From Natronospira proteinivora (GTDB taxonomy: Bacteria; Pseudomonadota; Gammaproteobacteria; Natronospirales; Natronospiraceae): a DNA stretch of 64,000 bases. The notes under the pieces are model-generated. The model was not told the origin of the DNA and did no database searches. It saw only the letters and a program-made list of their open reading frames with translations. Positions 13,492 through 25,622 of this stretch are shown here, piece after piece. A program made the position numbers and the translations under genes. Location of the stretch: positions 62,001 through 126,000 of the forward strand of contig NZ_JALJYF010000002.1 of NCBI RefSeq assembly GCF_024170465.1, in the 5' to 3' direction. Numbering within the stretch: the stretch's first letter is position 1; each line of letters begins with the position of its first letter.

Positions 13492-14418
13492 CTATGGACT
13501 CTCCCTCCCCGTCCCGGTCACATCAATCTCTGCCACCTCGGACTCATCAAGCTCTGACAATTCCAGCTGCAGGGTGGAAAAATAGATTGAAAATCGCTCT
13601 CCCAGCGCGGTCTTGGCCCGTTTCAACAAAGCATCCAGCTGATCAAGGTTTAGTGACTCATCCACTCTAAGGTGGGCAGAAAAAATAGGTTTTCCGGATG
13701 TCAGCAGCCACAGATGCGGGTGATGCACATGACGAACACCATCCAATGCATTCAGGTATTCACAAATTTCAGAAACCGATGGCTCTTCAGGCGCATGTTC
13801 CATGAGCACGGACAGAGATTCCCGCAAAATGCTCCACGCCGCATACAAGACCATAAGCCCGAAAAGCATGCCCAGAATGGGATCGATCAACATAAAACCG
13901 GTGAAGTGGATCACTCCGGCGGCGAAGATGATGCCGAAGCTGCCCAGAAAAGTCTGAACCACATGCCAGAAGGCACCACGGGTATTGATGTCTTCCTTTT
14001 GGCTGCGGAACATGAGCGCAATCAACCAAATTTCGGTCAACATACCAACAAGCGCCACGATAAACATGGGCGCTGCCGGAATTTCGATGGGCGACATCAG
14101 ACGCATGCCCCCCATAATCATGGCCACCAAGGCCATGACCAGTAGCGCAGCCCCATTCATCAGGGCCCCCACGATCTCGGCGCGCTGCCCACCAAAGGTC
14201 TGTGACAGGGAAGCCGGCCGCCGGGCAATCCTTCGGGCCACCAGGGCCAGGACCACACCGCCCACTGCCGAAAAGGTGTGAGCGGCGTCCACCAGGACCA
14301 TGACTGACCCCGTATAGAGCCCGACCGCCAATTCAAAGAAGAAATACGCCCCCGTAACCACGGCAGCAATCTTCAGCTGGCGGCCGTGCCCCATCCCATG
14401 ATGCTGATGTCCCGACAT
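13492..14418 (-). CDS. CDF-family cation transporter with altered metal site
   Basis: 308-residue inner-membrane protein with six predicted helices and a short His-rich N-terminus (MSGHQHHGMGHG). It aligns with ZitB/CzcD from VDAAHTF through the C-terminal cytoplasmic domain. Canonical CDF proteins carry HxxxD in helix 2 and HxxxD in helix 5. Here helix 2 reads His47-TFS-Ala51 and helix 5 His151-VVQ-Thr155, so both Asp ligands of the transport site are lost while both His remain. It may use another metal, or be a non-transporting partner. It is 26 bases downstream of the copper ATPase gene on the same strand. Confidence 0.85.
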   Translation of the reverse strand: MSGHQHHGMGHGRQLKIAAVVTGAYFFFELAVGLYTGSVMVLVDAAHTFSAVGGVVLALVARRIARRPASLSQTFGGQRAEIVGALMNGAALLVMALVAMIMGGMRLMSPIEIPAAPMFIVALVGMLTEIWLIALMFRSQKEDINTRGAFWHVVQTFLGSFGIIFAAGVIHFTGFMLIDPILGMLFGLMVLYAAWSILRESLSVLMEHAPEEPSVSEICEYLNALDGVRHVHHPHLWLLTSGKPIFSAHLRVDESLNLDQLDALLKRAKTALGERFSIYFSTLQLELSELDESEVAEIDVTGTGRESP

Positions 14419-14444: not shown

Positions 14445-16691
14445 TCAGTCTGCTCGCTTACCCAGGCCCAGGCGAGTCCATTTCAATAACATGGAGTTAC
14501 CCACCACCGAGAGGGAGCTCAGGGTCATGGCGATTACGCCAATCATGGGGTGAAGCAGGCCAACGGCCGCGATGGGAATCGCCACAATATTGTAGAAAAA
14601 AGCCCAGAAGAGATTCTGGACGATCTTGGCAAAGGTGGCGCGGGATAGGCGAATGGCCTCCACGGCGGCGGAGAGTTCGCCCCGAACCAGGGTGACATCG
14701 GCCGCTTCAATGGCAATGTCCGCACCGGCACCGATGGCAATACCCACATTGGCTTGTTTGAGGGCCGGCGCATCATTGATGCCGTCACCCACCATGGCCA
14801 CTCGATCACCATAACGGGATTGCAGCTCACGGATTGCTTCCACCTTGCCGTCGGGAAGCACCCCCGCCTGGATTTCGTCGATGCCCACTTGCTTGCCCAC
14901 ATGCTGGGCCGTGCGCTCATTGTCACCCGTCACCATGACCGTGCGAATGCCCAAGCCATGCAAGGCCTCAATGGCTCGCTTGGAATCCTCCTTGACGGTA
15001 TCGGCCACCGCCACAATGCCGGCCGCCCGGCCACCAATCGACACCAGCATGGCAGTGCGGCCGGTTTTCTCAAGGGCCTGCATGTCCGAATCGGCGTGAC
15101 CGGGCAAGTCCACGTTCTTTTCCTGCATCAGACGCCGGCTGCCCACCAGCACGGTCTCGCCGTCCACGCTGGCCTGCATGCCCCGGGCCGTGATGCTCTT
15201 GAAATCCCGGGCTTCGGGCTTCTCCACGCCTCGATCCCGGGCACCGTCGACAATGGCCTGGGCCAGGGGATGTTCCGAGCCGGCTTCCACCCCGGCGGCC
15301 GCGGCCAGCAAACGATCCTCGTCGAAGCCCTCGAAAGCCTGCACGTCAGTTAGCTCTGGCTCGCCCTTGGTGATGGTACCGGTCTTGTCCAATACCACTA
15401 CCCGGACATGGCGCAGGGTCTGAATGGCACTGCCGGAGCGCAGCAGCACGCCGCGCTCGGCACCCATGCCGGAACCCACCATAAGCGCTGTGGGCGTGGC
15501 CAAGCCCAGGGCGCAGGGGCAGGAAATAACCAGCACGGCAATGGCTGCCAGTACCGCCAACAACAATGGCGATTGATCCGGATTCACCCAGGGCAGGAAA
15601 GTCTCCCCCCAGTGGAGGATAGGCGTCAGGGCCTCGGCAAAGAACAGCCAGACCAAAAAGCTGAGCAGGGCCGCCGCGATCACGACAGGCACGAAACGAC
15701 CGGTGATTCGATCGGCCAGTTCCTGAACGGGGACCCGGGAACTCTGGGCCTCTTCCACCAGCTTGATCACCTGGGACAGGAAGGTTTCCTTGCCGACCTT
15801 CGTTGCCCTGACCCGCAGACGACCCTCCTTATTGATGGTCGCCCCGATCACCGTATCGCCACTGCTCTTCTCCACCGGGACCGATTCCCCCGTGGCGATG
15901 GACTCATCCAGATGGCTGTTGCCGTCGAGAATCTCACCATCGGTGGGAATCTTTTCACCCGGACGCACGATCATCACATCCCCGGGCGCCAGCTCATCCA
16001 CGGCCACTTCCACCTCGTCACCGTCCCGCTCTACCCGGGCCGTCTTGGCGCCCAGGGTGAGTAGCTTCTGGATGGCGCTGGAGGCACGGCCCTTGGCCCG
16101 GTCTTCGAGATAACGACCCAGCAGGTGAAAGGCCATGATGGTGGCCGCCATCTCGATAAAGGACGTCATGGGAAAGACAAAACCAACCAGGCCGATGAAA
16201 TACGGCGGCAGACTGCCCATGCTGATCAGCACATCCATGTTGGGCGATAAGCTCTTCGCCGATCGCCAGGCGGAACGGTGCGTGGAGGCACCGGCGATAA
16301 AGACCACAGGAAAGGCGAGCACGGCGATAATGGCCAAATAACCCGGGATCGGTTGCCAGAACATATGCGGCATCATCAAAATCATGATGAGCACCGTCGG
16401 CACCATGGCCAGCCAGAGATTGCGGCGTGCCCGCTTTACATAGGCCTGTTCTCCCGCCTCGCCGTCATCGTCATCCGACACCGAGGTCACATCGTAACCG
16501 GCGCCCTCCACCCGCGCCTTGAGCGTCTCCCCGCTGACCGAATCGGGAACCGTGACCAGCACCCGGTGCCGGGCAATATAGGTCTGCACCGAGCGTACAT
16601 TGCTGTCCCGTTCCAGGGCCTTGCGGACAATCCCGGCGCAGTGGTCACTGCCCATGCCGGGGACGATCAGTTCGATTTCCTTGTCACTCAT
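14445..16691 (-). CDS. P1B-type copper-translocating ATPase (single degenerate HMA)
   Basis: 748 residues. The N-terminal HMA-like domain reads GMGSDHC, so the usual CxxC is reduced to Ser15-x-x-Cys18. After two helices and [16 protein letters not shown] comes the actuator TGES. Helix 6 has [12 protein letters not shown] (CPC metal site). Further landmarks are the phosphorylation site DKTGTITKG, nucleotide-domain SEHPLA and [18 protein letters not shown]. The C-terminal helix signature NSMLLKW fits Cu(I) ATPases. It probably exports Cu+/Ag+ from the cytosol. Followed by the CDF gene and preceded by the His/Asp-tailed membrane protein, probably one operon. Confidence 0.9.
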
Positions 16692-16734: not shown

Positions 16735-17334
<600 letters not shown>

Positions 17335-17460: not shown

Positions 17461-20400
17461 TCATTCCCGCAACCCCCGGGCATGCCAGAGGTAGTACAAG
17501 ACCGGCAGTACCACCAGGGCGGCAATCCAGACGCTGAACACCCCGCCCACCATGGGCGCGGCGATGCGCTGCATGACTTCGGCCCCCGTGCCGGTGCCGA
17601 TCATGATGGGCAGCAAGCCGAGGAAGACCGTGGTCTCGGTCATGGTGATGGGCCTGACGCGTCGGAGCGCCCCACCCATGACCGCTTCGCGCAGATTGGC
17701 CCGGGTCATATTCTCACCCACCGAATCACGCCAATCACGATAGGCCTGATTGAGATAAACCTGCATGATTACGCCCGTCTCCACCGCCAGGCCGCCCAGA
17801 GCGATGAACCCCACCGCCACGGCAATGGACATATCAAAACCCAACCCCCACAGCAGCCAGAAGCCGCCCACCAAGGACAGGGGGACGGTGGCCAGCACCA
17901 TGGCCACATCGGAGAAGCGGTTGAAGGTCATCATCAGCAATACCAGGATGATGGCCAGCACAATGGGAATCAGTACCGACAGCCGCTCCATGGCTCGTTC
18001 CATGTACTGATACTGGCCGCCCCAGCTCAGTGAATAACCCGCAGGCAGGTCTACCTGCTCGGACACCCGTTGACGGGCTTCGCTCACATAGTCACCCAGG
18101 GAGCGATCACCGATTTCCACGAAGACAAAGCCCGTCGGCCGGGTGTTCTCGGTGCGGATCATGGCCGGGCCATCGGAGACACCGATATGGGCCACCTGCC
18201 CCAGGCTCAGCGCCTGACCGTTGGGGGCCACGAAAGGCAGCTGCTCCAGCTTCTCGGGGGAATCCCGCCAGTCATGGGGATAGCGGATATTGATGGGGAA
18301 GCGCTCCAACCCTTCCACCGTCTCACCCACATTGGTCCCGCCGACGGCATAACGAACCACCTCGTGCACATCATCGATATTCAGTCCATGGCGGGCCGCT
18401 GCCTGGCGATCCACATGGATATCCAGGTACCGACCTGAGGCGGTACGATCGGCCAGGGCCGAGCGGGTCCCCGAAATCTCATTGACCACCGCTTCGATTT
18501 CTTGGCCGATTTCTTCAATGACACTCAGATCCGGCCCGCTGATGCCGATACCCAGATCGGTCCGGATACCGGTGGCCAGCATGTCGATGCGGGTCTGGAT
18601 GGGAAAGACCCAGGCATTGGTCAGGCCCGGAAACTGAACCAGGGCATCCAGTTCGTCCTTGATGTCCTGGGTGGTGACCCCGTCCCGCCACTCGCTGCGG
18701 GGTTTGAGCATGATGAAGGTTTCAATCATGGTCATGGGGGCGGGATCCGTGGCGGTTTCGGCCCGACCCACCTTACCGAAAACCCGTTTCACTTCAGGCA
18801 CCTGCTTGATCAGCGCATCAGTCTGCTGCAGAAGTTCACGGGCCTTGTCGGGAGACACCCCCGGCAAGGTGGTGGGCATATACATAAGATCGCCCTCATC
18901 CAGCTCGGGCATGAACTCCGTGCCCACCCGATCCATGGGCCACCAGGTGGTGGCAGCGACGATCAGGGTCGCACCCAGCACCCAGACCGGGTATCGCAAT
19001 ACACCCCGGATCACCGGCTGGTAGACCGCCTTCACGCCGCGACTGATGGGGTTCTCATCCTGACTGCGTATCCGGCCGCGAATGAAATAGCCCATCAACA
19101 CCGGCACCAGCGTCACCGCAATCCCGGCCGCTGCGGCCATGGCATAGGTCTTGGTGAAAGCCAAGGGCGCGAACAGCCGCCCTTCCTGGGCTTCCAGCGC
19201 GAATACCGGCAAAAAGCTCAATGCCACCACCAGCAAGCTAAAGAAGATGGGCCGGCCCACCTCCAGGGTGGCTTCTTCGATGGCCGCCCAGTGTTTTTCC
19301 GGTGGTGGCGGATCTTTTTCAAATCGTCGGTGGACGTTCTCGATCAACACGATGGCAGCATCCACCATCACGCCGATGGAGATAGCAATCCCGCCCAGGG
19401 ACATGATGTTGGCGTTAATCCCCTGGAAGTACATCACGATGTAGGCCACCAGCACGCCCAGGGGCAGACTGATCAAAACCACCAGGGATGAGCGCATATG
19501 CCAGAGGAAGAGCCCAATGATGAGCACCACCACCGCGAACTCCAGGGCCAGCTTTTCCCACAGGGTGGCAATGGCATTGCCGATCAACTCGGAGCGATCA
19601 TAGGTCTCGACAATCTCCACGCCTTCCGGCAGACCGGCCTTCAGCTCATCCAGCCGGGATCGCACCGCACGAATGGTCTCGCGGGCATTCTCGCCATCAC
19701 GCATCACCACAATGCCGCCGGTAACCTCCCCCTCGCCGTCCAGCTCGGCAATGCCGCGCCGGGGCGCTGGACCCCGACGAATGTCTGCCACCTGATCCAG
19801 CATCACCGGCACCCCACCGGCATCCACGCCCACCGGAATCAGCCGCAAATCATCCAGATTCTGGATGTAGCCGGAGGCCCGCACCATGTACTCGGCTTCC
19901 GCCATCTCCAGGGTGGAACCACCCGTCTCGGCGTTGGCCCGCTGGATGGCACGGCGGACTTGATCGATGGGCAGGTTATAGGCCCGTAGTCGATCCGGGT
20001 CCATGACCACCTGGTACTGGCGGACCATGCCGCCCACGGTGGCCACTTCCGATACCCCCGGCACCGACTGGAGTTCGAACTTGAGGTACCAGTCCTGTAG
20101 AGCCCGCAGTTGAGATAAATCATGATTGCCGGAACGATCCACCAGGGCGTACTTGTAGATCCAGCCCACGCCGGTGGCATCCGGCCCCAGGGACACCGTC
20201 ACCCCCTCCGGCATCTGCCCTTCCACCTGGCTCAGGTATTCCTGGACCCGGCTGCGGGCCCAATAGAGATCGGTGTCGTCATCGAACAGCACATTGATGA
20301 AGGCATCGCCGTACATGGAAAAGCCACGCACGGTCTCGGCCCCCGGCACCGCCATCAGCGCCGTGGTCAGGGGATAGGTCACCTGATCTTCCACCACCTC

Positions 20401-20574
20401 CGGCGCCAGACCCGGTGCCTCGGCACGGACAATGACCTGGGTATCGGACAGATCCGGAATGGCATCCACCGGGGTATGCTTGACCGCATACAGACCCACC
20501 GCCGCGGTCACCAGTGCCAGAATCAGCACCAGGACACGGTTGACAATGGACCAATGAATCAGTTTTTCAATCAT
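17461..20574 (-). CDS. cusA: heavy-metal RND efflux pump, CusA type
   Basis: 1037-residue inner-membrane proton antiporter. Typical HME-RND features: N-terminal helix then the periplasmic domain with TPVDAIPDLSDTQVIV, TM4 with GVMVDAAIVLIENVHRR (proton-relay Asp), a second periplasmic loop and 12 helices in total. The three methionines that hold Cu/Ag in CusA have equivalents in MYMPTTLPG, PMTMIETF and RIDMLATG, so Cu(I)/Ag(I) specificity is favoured over zinc/cobalt. It forms the tripartite pump with CusB and CusC encoded upstream. It ends the cus operon; the gap to cusB (172 bases) holds a REP-like composite repeat. Confidence 0.93.
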   Translation of the reverse strand: MIEKLIHWSIVNRVLVLILALVTAAVGLYAVKHTPVDAIPDLSDTQVIVRAEAPGLAPEVVEDQVTYPLTTALMAVPGAETVRGFSMYGDAFINVLFDDDTDLYWARSRVQEYLSQVEGQMPEGVTVSLGPDATGVGWIYKYALVDRSGNHDLSQLRALQDWYLKFELQSVPGVSEVATVGGMVRQYQVVMDPDRLRAYNLPIDQVRRAIQRANAETGGSTLEMAEAEYMVRASGYIQNLDDLRLIPVGVDAGGVPVMLDQVADIRRGPAPRRGIAELDGEGEVTGGIVVMRDGENARETIRAVRSRLDELKAGLPEGVEIVETYDRSELIGNAIATLWEKLALEFAVVVLIIGLFLWHMRSSLVVLISLPLGVLVAYIVMYFQGINANIMSLGGIAISIGVMVDAAIVLIENVHRRFEKDPPPPEKHWAAIEEATLEVGRPIFFSLLVVALSFLPVFALEAQEGRLFAPLAFTKTYAMAAAAGIAVTLVPVLMGYFIRGRIRSQDENPISRGVKAVYQPVIRGVLRYPVWVLGATLIVAATTWWPMDRVGTEFMPELDEGDLMYMPTTLPGVSPDKARELLQQTDALIKQVPEVKRVFGKVGRAETATDPAPMTMIETFIMLKPRSEWRDGVTTQDIKDELDALVQFPGLTNAWVFPIQTRIDMLATGIRTDLGIGISGPDLSVIEEIGQEIEAVVNEISGTRSALADRTASGRYLDIHVDRQAAARHGLNIDDVHEVVRYAVGGTNVGETVEGLERFPINIRYPHDWRDSPEKLEQLPFVAPNGQALSLGQVAHIGVSDGPAMIRTENTRPTGFVFVEIGDRSLGDYVSEARQRVSEQVDLPAGYSLSWGGQYQYMERAMERLSVLIPIVLAIILVLLMMTFNRFSDVAMVLATVPLSLVGGFWLLWGLGFDMSIAVAVGFIALGGLAVETGVIMQVYLNQAYRDWRDSVGENMTRANLREAVMGGALRRVRPITMTETTVFLGLLPIMIGTGTGAEVMQRIAAPMVGGVFSVWIAALVVLPVLYYLWHARGLRE

Positions 20575-20746: not shown

Positions 20747-22156
20747 TTAATGATCCGAGTGATCTTCCACACGGCCGTGGCCACCCTGAATGCTGGCTTC
20801 GGAATCGATCAGGAAGTGTCCTGACAGAACCACTTCGTCACCCGCCTCAATGCCATCCAGGATCACAATCTGATCACCACTGACCATGCCGGGAGTAATC
20901 TCCCGCACCCGGAAATGGTTTTCATCTTCTCGGATCACCACGCGATTACCGCGCCCGGTCCAAATCACCGCTTCCCGAGGGATGATCACGGCTTCCTCGG
21001 AGGGCTCGGCATGGATGGTGACGGCATTCCACATGCCGGGACGCAGGCCGGTATCCACGTTCTCCACCGGCAGACGAACACGGACCGAGCGTGTTACCGG
21101 ATCCAGGGTGGGATAGATATGACTGATCTCACTCTCCAGCTGACGGCCCGGCGCGTAAGGCAGGCCAATCTGGGCATGCTGCCCTTGGCTAATCCAGTCC
21201 GCCTGGTTTTCAAACACATCGGCGATCACCCATAGCTGGCTGAGATCCGCCAGCTCCATGATTTCGCTGCCGGGTTCCACATACATGCCGTGACGAACCC
21301 CAAGTTGGGTCACATAGGCATCCTGATGCGCGTACCAGGGAACGAACTGGATGACACGGCGTTCCCGCTCCAGGCGTTCGATCACCTCTTCATTCACATC
21401 CAATGCCCGGAGTCGGTCGCGGGCCGCTTCAACCACACGACCCTCTCCTCGACGCAAGGCCTGCAACAGCTCTTCCTGGGCATTGATCAGTTCCGGGGAA
21501 TACAGGGTGAAAAGCCGATCTCCCTGGGAGACGTGATCCCCTTCGGCATCCACATCCAGTTCATGGATCCACCCCTCAACGCGCGGATGGATGTGGTGCA
21601 GGCGGGACTGGTCATATTCGACCCGACCCACGGTTTCAATGCGGCGCATCAGCCGGCCATGCTCGGCCGTGGTGGTGCGTATATTCATGGCCTGTTGCAT
21701 GCCTGCGGGCACATGCACCTGATCCACTTCCATGTCGTGGCCTTCCCGCTGGACAAGATCCATGCCACAAATGGGGCAGCGGCCCGGCTCATCTTCTTCG
21801 ATCTGGGGATGCATGGGGCAGGTCCAGACACCATCGCCATTACCATCTTCATGTTCATGGTCATGGTCATGGTCATGGTCGTGGTGATCATGATCGCCAT
21901 TGTCCTCATCATCATCACTCACCAGATCCATCCCACAGATGGGACAGCTACCCGGTTCATCATCCGTGACCTCGGGATGCATGGGGCAGTAATAAGCATC
22001 GTCCCCATGATCATGATCGTGATCATGCACCTCTTCACCATGATCATGGCTCTCGTGCTCCGCGTGGTCATGGTGGTCTTCGCCATTCCCGCAGGCCATC
22101 AGCAGACCCAAAAGAGAGATGGCCATCAAACGTCGAATCAGGGTCAGGGCATTCAT
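20747..22156 (-). CDS. cusB: CusB-type periplasmic adaptor with two heavy-metal-binding domains
   Basis: 469 residues. Lipoprotein signal with lipobox LLMAC (Cys22). His/Asp-rich stretches then alternate with two copies of the heavy-metal-binding motif: YYCPMHPEVTDDEPGSCPIC plus GMDL, and WTCPMHPQIEEDEPGRCPIC plus GMDL. The membrane-fusion part follows (EHGRLMRRIETVGRV, HPRVEGWIHELDVDAEGDHV, hairpin about 220-270, barrel and membrane-proximal domains). Links CusA to CusC and probably collects periplasmic copper. Overlaps cusC by four bases. The doubled metal domain and the long His linkers are unusual. Confidence 0.92.
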   Translation of the reverse strand: MNALTLIRRLMAISLLGLLMACGNGEDHHDHAEHESHDHGEEVHDHDHDHGDDAYYCPMHPEVTDDEPGSCPICGMDLVSDDDEDNGDHDHHDHDHDHDHEHEDGNGDGVWTCPMHPQIEEDEPGRCPICGMDLVQREGHDMEVDQVHVPAGMQQAMNIRTTTAEHGRLMRRIETVGRVEYDQSRLHHIHPRVEGWIHELDVDAEGDHVSQGDRLFTLYSPELINAQEELLQALRRGEGRVVEAARDRLRALDVNEEVIERLERERRVIQFVPWYAHQDAYVTQLGVRHGMYVEPGSEIMELADLSQLWVIADVFENQADWISQGQHAQIGLPYAPGRQLESEISHIYPTLDPVTRSVRVRLPVENVDTGLRPGMWNAVTIHAEPSEEAVIIPREAVIWTGRGNRVVIREDENHFRVREITPGMVSGDQIVILDGIEAGDEVVLSGHFLIDSEASIQGGHGRVEDHSDH

Positions 22157-23412
22157 CGCGACTCTCCAGCCAGGTAATCCAGCTCAATTCGGCTCTCATC
22201 AATCTGTTGCTGCACATTCAGCAAGCGCAGCCGGTAATCCAGTTCATCCACCCGTGCCCGAATCACATCCCGGAAATCGCCTCGGTCGGCACGATAGGCC
22301 GAGAACTCCAACTCAAGGTTTTCCGCCGCCTCGGCCAGCAAGCTGGACTCATACAAGTCAGCCAGCTCCAGTCGACGCTGGTAGCGTGCATACTCGGATT
22401 CCAACTCCCCCTGGAGGACATGAATCTGATCCATTCGCCGATAGTGAACCGCCTGAGCCTCCGAGCGGGAAGCGGACAAGACCCGATCCTGTCGATCCCG
22501 GGTGAACAGGGGCAGGGAAAAACCCACCATCAGGGAGGCCATGTCGGAGGCCCGCCCACCATCCATGTCCGAAGCCCGACGATGGCCGTAGCTACCTTCC
22601 ATCATCCACTCCGGCCGGTAGCTCTGGCGGGCCAGATCCACCTCCGTCTCGGCGGCTTTCAGGCGATGGGCTTCGGCTTGCAGGCTGGGATGCTCCAGCA
22701 GGCGTTCGTTCATCACGGTCAATGATTTGGGCATCGGCAAATCGGCCTGCCCCGGCTCGGTTCCGGACGCCAGAGAACCGACCCAGCGAGCAAGCTCGGC
22801 GCGAGCGGCCGCCTGCTCGGATTCCAGGGTCAGAATTCGCTCCTCCACTGCGGCCAGCTCCAGACGGGAACGGGACAAGTCACGCTGACTGCCCAAGCCA
22901 CTCCGGTAACGGCTGCGGGTAACTTCCACCAGCGCTTCAAAATCCGCAGATTCCTCCCGGGCCAGCATTAACTGCTGACGGGTATAGGCCCAGGCCACCC
23001 AGGCACGCCGAACTTGACGCAGCACTTCCCGCTCACGGGCACTGACCTCGGCTTCCAGGGCCTCGGCGGCCCGCATGCCACGCTCACGAGACAGAGTCCG
23101 GCTCTCTCCGGCCGGAAAACGCTGGCGAGCGCCGATCATCAAAGAGGACATCCGGTCTTCATTGAGATTGAAGCTATCCACGGGCAGATTCTGCAGCCCC
23201 ACGGTGATTTCCGGATCCGGCAAGGCCGACTGGGCCACGGCCGAATCCCGCGTAGCCTCGACCCGGGCCCGCAGCTCATCCAGGCCGGCATCCCGGGCCA
23301 GGGCCCGTTCTTCCGCCTCGGCCATATCCAGCACCGAATTTTGAGCCGCCAGCGTTGGCGGCAAGAGAACAGCCACTGCCATTAGCAGGGCCATCAAAAA
23401 TGGGAGTTTCAT
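22153..23412 (-). CDS. cusC: TolC-family outer-membrane channel of the Cus pump
   Basis: 419-residue outer-membrane efflux protein. Signal peptide MKLPFLMALLMAVAVLLPPTLAA, then two long coiled-coil repeats rich in Ala/Arg/Glu, with short barrel segments (SYGHRRASDMDG, MVGFSLPLFTRDR). LPLFTRDR corresponds to the conserved periplasmic-turn region of metal-type TolC proteins. No Cys after the signal, so it is not obviously lipidated like E. coli CusC. Its stop overlaps the cusB start. Preceded by a small Cys-rich gene. Confidence 0.88.
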   Translation of the reverse strand: MKLPFLMALLMAVAVLLPPTLAAQNSVLDMAEAEERALARDAGLDELRARVEATRDSAVAQSALPDPEITVGLQNLPVDSFNLNEDRMSSLMIGARQRFPAGESRTLSRERGMRAAEALEAEVSAREREVLRQVRRAWVAWAYTRQQLMLAREESADFEALVEVTRSRYRSGLGSQRDLSRSRLELAAVEERILTLESEQAAARAELARWVGSLASGTEPGQADLPMPKSLTVMNERLLEHPSLQAEAHRLKAAETEVDLARQSYRPEWMMEGSYGHRRASDMDGGRASDMASLMVGFSLPLFTRDRQDRVLSASRSEAQAVHYRRMDQIHVLQGELESEYARYQRRLELADLYESSLLAEAAENLELEFSAYRADRGDFRDVIRARVDELDYRLRLLNVQQQIDESRIELDYLAGESR

Positions 23413-24683: not shown

Positions 24684-25622
24684 ATGCCAGCGCGACAGGA
24701 AGAGACAAGCAGGCTGCAGTTCAAGGGCTTTGTCTATGAACCGGACAGCGGTCGCCTGAGCGGGCCCACCGGCACCCAGACCCTGCGTCCCCAGGCCGCC
24801 CGGCTCCTCGAGGCCTTGCTGGCCCGGCCCGGCGTGGTCATTGACCGGCAAACCCTGGTCGAATCTGTCTGGGGCGAGGGCCGGGTAGTGGAATTCGATG
24901 CCGGTCTCTCGGCCCTGATCAAGGAACTCAGAGCGGCGCTGGGCGACCAGGCCGGTTCGCCCACCTTCATCGAAACCATCCCCCGACGCGGAGTCCGTTT
25001 CCTGGTCCAGCCAGACACCACAGATCAAGCCGGAAACGCCCCATCCAGCGCCGCTTTGCCGCGCCCCATCCGCTTGATCGTCACGACCATACTCGCCTTG
25101 TTGCTGGGCGGGCTGGTGCTGCTGATGGCCTGGGACCTAGTCCCATTTGGCGGCGACCCGGAAGCAGCAGATCGGCCGCCCCGCGTGGCGGTCCTGCCCT
25201 TTCTGTCGGTGGATGATGCCGACCGGGAACAACGCGCCTCCATGCTGCTGGCCGACAGCCTGATCGCCGCCTTGGGCCAAGTGGTCAGCCGGGCCGATAC
25301 CGAACAGGGAAGCCCACCCTACGCCGTGATTGGCCGCACCTCGGTAGTGGACTATCCGGCCGGCGAGGAGCTCTTGCCCCGTTTGGGTCGAGAACTGCGG
25401 GTGGACCTGGTAATCGAAGGCAGTTATCGACAGGAAGGCGAACAGGACTGGCTGATTAACATCAGTGCAGTGAAGGTGGAGGAGCAAACCATTCTCCTCT
25501 CCCGCAGCTTTGTCAGCGATGCCCTCTCCTCCCAGGCGGTGAGAGAACAGATGCAGAGCTTTGCCCTGGAGCTGGAACAAGCCGCAAGACGTTGCGGCCA
25601 GGATTGCCTGGCCACTCAATAA
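24684..25622 (+). CDS. CadC/ToxR-like membrane-bound winged-helix regulator
   Basis: 312 residues. The N-terminal OmpR-type winged helix (about 10-105) has the pattern LRPQAARLLEALLARPGVVI...LVESVWGEGRVVEFDAGLSA..I.ELRAALGD...FIETIPRRGVRF. A single membrane helix follows (about 130-150, LIVTTILALLLGGLVLLMAW). The periplasmic part begins PPRVAVLPFLSVDDADRE, as in CadC-like proteins with a FlgO/TolB-like sensory domain. Senses an envelope signal and activates nearby genes directly. Possible targets are the upstream secreted gene or the copper genes; this is context only. The periplasmic end has two Cys (CGQDC). Confidence 0.8.
   Translation: MPARQEETSRLQFKGFVYEPDSGRLSGPTGTQTLRPQAARLLEALLARPGVVIDRQTLVESVWGEGRVVEFDAGLSALIKELRAALGDQAGSPTFIETIPRRGVRFLVQPDTTDQAGNAPSSAALPRPIRLIVTTILALLLGGLVLLMAWDLVPFGGDPEAADRPPRVAVLPFLSVDDADREQRASMLLADSLIAALGQVVSRADTEQGSPPYAVIGRTSVVDYPAGEELLPRLGRELRVDLVIEGSYRQEGEQDWLINISAVKVEEQTILLSRSFVSDALSSQAVREQMQSFALELEQAARRCGQDCLATQ

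Follow-up and report, generated by a model that had tools for sequence, protein, structure and literature searches.

The window, that is, the whole stretch of 64,000 nucleotides that was analysed, encodes a cation diffusion facilitator (CDF) belonging to a conserved subfamily in which both transport-site aspartates are replaced and which shows copper/silver linkage. In existing descriptions, CDF proteins export divalent metals and cannot do without their two site aspartates. Our best explanation, which we put forward tentatively, is that this subfamily was re-purposed for copper/silver, most likely as a still-transporting inner-membrane Cu(I)/Ag(I) exporter. As for the window protein itself, copper or silver, and not zinc, is probably the metal that it handles.

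An intact CDF with an altered transport site

The gene lies on the minus strand, with an undisrupted reading frame and both domains complete. We refer to the subfamily of its product as HA-HT, after the four residues found at the site.

13492..14418, minus strand: HA-HT CDF protein, 308 aa, six-helix transmembrane domain and C-terminal domain
14278..14280, minus strand: His47 codon, TM2 site residue, kept (ZitB H53)
14266..14268, minus strand: Ala51 codon (ZitB D57)
14134..14136, minus strand: Met95 codon, TM3, clade-invariant (ZitB I101)
14113..14115, minus strand: Met102 codon, TM3, clade-invariant (ZitB E108)
14032..14034, minus strand: Glu129 codon, TM4, clade-invariant carboxylate (ZitB Asn135)
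13966..13968, minus strand: Trp151 codon, clade-invariant (ZitB L158)
13963..13965, minus strand: His152 codon, TM5 site residue, kept (ZitB H159)
13954..13956, minus strand: Gln155 codon, clade-invariant (ZitB G162)
13951..13953, minus strand: Thr156 codon (ZitB D163)

The predicted helices run from about 8-36 (TM1), 39-65 (TM2), 76-108 (TM3), 115-136 (TM4), 144-173 (TM5) and 178-206 (TM6), and are followed by a C-terminal domain at about 208-288. The protein belongs to the CDF superfamily, with a TIGR01297 score of 208.4 against a cut-off of 82.35 bits, and Pfam Cation_efflux and ZT_dimer were both above their cut-offs (E 1e-34 and 3e-13). It fell short of the ZitB equivalog NF002923 (170 bits vs a cut-off of 408). 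The AlphaFold2 model (pLDDT 77) has the YiiP/ZnT fold, that is, six helices and a cytoplasmic alpha-beta domain, and was best matched by YiiP, ZnT10, ZnT7, ZnT1 and ZnT3, with Z up to 22.8 but a high rmsd of 8-12 A. A canonical HD-HD CDF is also encoded in the same genome, on a different contig.

Alignment with E. coli K-12 ZitB (b0752; sequence from the genome record) gave about 30% identity over 303 columns, and the site residues corresponded as H47=H53, A51=D57, H152=H159 and T156=D163. At the position four residues after the TM2 His, where both the CDF signature [HDN]-X3-D and the HD-HD quartet of Zn-CDFs have Asp, the window protein and 25 of 25 clade members have Ala51. Four residues after the TM5 His, where HD-HD again has Asp, Thr156 was found in 25/25. 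An earlier note on this DNA had proposed that both site aspartates were replaced and that no frameshift was involved. The replacement stood, as H47-x3-A51 and H152-x3-T156, but the TM5 numbering given (151/155) was one too low; the intact 308-aa ORF, the alignment to ZitB and the presence of both domains bear out the second point. A neighbouring Asp filling the site was ruled out, since D44 and D179 correspond in the alignment to the conserved ZitB residues D50 and D186 and are thus no substitute for the missing aspartates. A one-strain error was likewise ruled out by the occurrence of H/A/H/T in every one of the 25 clade members.

Conservation of the clade and remodelling of its site

The HA-HT quartet was present in all 25 relatives examined, which come from gamma- and alphaproteobacteria, many of them on marine plasmids. 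The searches covered the class, the phylum, Alphaproteobacteria and a plasmid collection, and the relatives that they returned were at 45-68% identity. The 52 other CDFs in the same alignment were HD-HD (47) or HD-ED (5), with no intermediates, and the H-x3-A / H-x3-T pattern, for which the earlier note had proposed a survey of homologues, was seen in 0/52 of them. In a maximum-likelihood tree, HA-HT proteins formed one side of a single branch (support 100/99, stem 0.81). Pairwise dN/dS (NG86) was about 0.09-0.32 for pairs with estimable dS, and values so well below 1 indicate that the HA-HT proteins are under purifying selection.

Exact TM2-motif searches showed the clade to be rare, with 4/398 genomes of the phylum and 4/385 of Alphaproteobacteria. 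A protein search (E 1e-45) found it on 50 plasmid records, mostly from Roseobacter-group genera, 31 of which were typed conjugative; 13 of the 50 loci were read. No clade member was found on viral contigs (IMG/VR), only nine canonical CDFs, which were used in the structure alignment. The IMG/VR contigs (L142-L150, 23-437 kb) carry HD-HD or HD-ED proteins, which may be encoded by viruses or by host DNA assigned in error. A pattern scan of genome contigs returned only a pair of distant CDFs; it missed the clade because the peptide patterns had been placed on variable parts. At one locus, L099 (G541), the C-terminal domain of the CDF gene, which starts from about 9829, appears frameshifted, through either pseudogene formation or an assembly error.

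Comparison of the 25 clade members with the 52 other CDFs identified residues spread over TM1-TM6 that never vary within the clade and are seldom or never found in the others, namely F26, V41, T48, V52, G53, G54, G84, M95, M102, T128, E129, W151, Q155, F157, F175, G183 and F186. Mutagenesis of ZitB and other CDFs has shown ZitB D57, N135 and D163 to be each essential (PMC1868760, Table 1), and in the clade these three are replaced by the single invariant alternatives A51, E129 and T156. All other residues that ZitB needs (E35, D50, H53, H159, S167 and D186) are kept; the transport-path residues H47, H152, E29, D44, S160 and D179 are invariant. The net change is of two carboxylates lost and one gained, in TM4. 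As TM4 belongs, with TM1, TM2 and TM5, to the bundle of helices in which site A lies (PMC6440370), E129 may lie near H47 and H152. Judged from these residues, the HA-HT site is remodelled, not merely lost. The idea of a His-only site, put forward in the earlier note, has to be given up, for Glu129 and Gln155 are clade-invariant and Glu129 replaces the very Asn135 that ZitB needs. Conservation extends to the C-terminal dimerisation domain, including the histidines H232, H233, H235 and H249. Cys and Met are frequent ligands of Cu(I) sites; no Cys was gained in the transmembrane helices of the clade.

Copper genes around HA-HT genes

In the window, the CDF gene is the last of a CusC-CusB-CusA-DUF2231-CopA-CDF operon, all genes of which run in one direction with gaps of -4 to 172 bp.

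14445..16691, minus strand: CopA-type Cu(I) P1B ATPase with CPC, YN and MxxSS motifs, 26 bp upstream of the CDF gene
16735..17334, minus strand: DUF2231 membrane protein with a His/Asp-rich tail
17461..20574, minus strand: CusA-type RND pump with the E. coli CusA methionines M573, M623 and M672 all retained
20747..22156, minus strand: CusB-type adaptor with two HMBD heavy-metal-binding domains
22153..23412, minus strand: outer-membrane efflux protein (CusC-like), 4-bp overlap with cusB

Both CusA, with its Met triad, and CopA, with CPC/YN/MxxSS, retain Cu(I)/Ag(I) motifs. We noticed that the N-terminal metal-binding domain of CopA reads GMGSDHC, the first Cys of the usual CxxC being gone, and that the long His/Asp tail (HDHDHD) of the DUF2231 protein stems from a simple repeat near 16790-16830. 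The plus-strand gene at 24684-25622, not far from the cus operon, encodes 312 aa with a winged-helix Trans_reg_C domain at the N-terminus; its product may be a CadC-like regulator bound to the membrane.

Copper linkage was then assessed across the clade, using as copper-specific markers CopA with MxxSS, multicopper oxidase, CopB, DUF411, CopC and CopD within about 10 kb. Such markers were found near 15/18 non-redundant clade genes versus 0/31 canonical CDF genes, many of the latter being from the same genomes as the clade genes (p 5e-10). The markers for this first set had been picked after some plasmid loci had been seen, and therefore a later set was taken, in which they lay near 2/3 clade loci and 1/9 control CDFs. 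The sole marker-positive control is a canonical CDF that shares its contig with a clade gene (L184). Pooling both sets gave 17/21 non-redundant clade genes against 1/40 canonical CDFs (p about 2e-10), so that the association with copper genes suspected in the earlier note proved strong across the clade. The co-occurrence it had suggested looking for was also found with CopA as the only marker (6/18 clade genes vs 0/31 canonical, p 0.001). The CopA gene directly adjoins the CDF gene both in gammaproteobacteria (the window, L092 and L093) and on alphaproteobacterial plasmids (L062, L132 and L137). Locus L095 is without copper-specific markers; its neighbours are DsbD-like, cytochrome c, Rieske, lgt and ion-channel genes, which resemble those in Roseobacter plasmid islands.

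A module DUF6010 - VTT - HA-HT CDF - DUF411 recurs on plasmids of several Roseobacter genera (L064, L134, L135, L136, L138 and L188), where it adjoins a two-component system and a Crp/Fnr regulator and sometimes comes with a sterol desaturase-like gene. A paper on Alteromonas copper resistance was without CDF content.

Dinoroseobacter shibae provides a phenotypic lead. Cells with pDSHI06 were slightly more tolerant to AgNO3, and their tolerance to Cu, Co and Zn was unchanged (PMC9426580). On this 102-kb plasmid, a clade member sits beside DUF411, VTT and DUF6010 genes, and a multicopper oxidase is encoded about 5 kb from it. The lead is weak, because the effect belongs to pDSHI06 as a whole and related copies are also found on the 126- and 191-kb plasmids of D. 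shibae.

Possible functions and relation to known CDFs

That the protein still transports is an inference, and it is genomic context and the plasmid-level silver effect that point to Cu(I)/Ag(I) as its probable substrate. A possible scenario, held with less assurance than the exporter reading itself, is that a Zn2+/H+ antiporter turned into a transporter dedicated to Cu(I)/Ag(I) through replacement of both site aspartates and placement of one carboxylate in TM4, and then spread on marine plasmids. H47 and H152, together with Glu129 and the polar or sulphur residues T48, Q155, T156, M95 and M102, would form a site of lower negative charge, which would suit a monovalent soft ion instead of Zn2+. 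The protein would act beside CopA, from cytoplasm to periplasm, and the outer membrane would then be crossed with the help of CusCBA. The protons that YiiP exchanges are borne by its own site residues, the TM5 His among them (PMC10617992), and this is why we guess, by analogy, that the kept histidines and Glu129 could provide proton coupling. Against a copper/silver exporter stand the fact that D-to-A changes in TM2 or TM5 of ZitB abolish function (PMC1868760), the absence of a Cys gain in the transmembrane helices, the slightness of a silver effect that belongs to pDSHI06 as a whole and to no single gene so far, and a copper tolerance that did not change with this plasmid.

The main alternative, which we regard as less likely, is a non-transporting partner or regulator that would dimerise with a canonical CDF or with itself and, under copper stress, serve as a protomer with an auxiliary or metal-sensing role. 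Such a role would agree with the known loss of site residues in auxiliary CDFs (ZnT6, which works with ZnT5, and Zrg17-like proteins with TxxxS/T in TM5), with the kept dimerisation domain and its four histidines, and with the presence of another CDF in 13/13 clade-bearing genomes checked. However, of the first 23 neighbourhoods only two (L098 and L135) contain a second CDF gene, so a partner is not generally linked in cis, and a passive partner would need neither the six invariant transport-path residues nor the newly fixed membrane residues. More doubtful still is the transport of another cation, be it a divalent metal via a shifted Glu129 site or an alkali cation as in MceT. Glu129 could indeed supply a carboxylate for the lost aspartates, MceT is an altered-site CDF carrying Na+/Li+/K+ (PMC6440370), and many HA-HT carriers are marine; yet the neighbourhood is specific to copper, not to zinc, cobalt or sodium, and MceT retains the TM5 Asp and has Tyr/Gln where the HA-HT clade keeps both His. 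As to whether a ZitB-like gene has decayed or been mis-sequenced, decay typically shows itself in lost catalytic residues and the C-terminal domain at L099 does appear frameshifted, but fixation of the same two replacements in 25/25 relatives from two classes, dN/dS well below 1 and an intact frame with both domains leave this explanation next to no probability, and the conservation data refute it.

If the copper/silver exporter reading is true, there exists a CDF branch for monovalent coinage-metal ions on marine plasmids. The HA-HT CDF may be an unrecognised component of copper/silver resistance on these plasmids, where its genes are currently annotated as ordinary "cation diffusion facilitator" or CzcD. 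A conserved, Asp-less branch tied to copper/silver also offers a natural experiment on metal choice and proton coupling in CDFs.

Each of the 18 CDF clades of Cubillas and Barber-Zucker belongs to the same family and has its own A-site signature; the quartets named for them are HD-HD, ND-DD, DD-DD, DD-HD, EN-HD, HH-DH and HD-(E/H)D, and HA-HT is absent among these (PMC5703985). Neither HA-HT nor a copper-dedicated bacterial CDF was reported in the literature searched, which was mostly open-access, so this is not proof of absence. With ZitB and the ZitB/CzcD/ZnT-like Zn-CDFs, the clade shares the fold, the two-domain layout, about 30% identity and the C-terminal histidines, as well as E35, D50, H53, H159, S167 and D186 (ZitB numbering), but it differs from ZitB by D57 to Ala, D163 to Thr, N135 to Glu, E108 to Met and M54 to Thr. 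The eukaryotic ZnT6 and Zrg17-like auxiliary CDFs also have replaced site residues, ZnT6 being an auxiliary protomer without them (PMC7949119) and Zrg17-like proteins having TxxxS/T in TM5 (PMC1868760). Unlike these, the HA-HT clade is bacterial, keeps both His and generally has no linked transporting partner. MceT, the Na-CDF of Planococcus dechangensis, has lost three of four site residues and switched substrate class to monovalent (PMC6440370); its quartet is YS-QD, not HA-HT, it loses both His and keeps the TM5 Asp, and no copper neighbourhood has been described for it. The earlier note had seen a departure from described CDF chemistry whether the protein transports or not, a view that the precedents of ZnT6, Zrg17-like proteins and MceT do not support. 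Other CDFs are already known that lost site residues or switched to monovalent ions, so HA-HT is not a wholly new kind of CDF.
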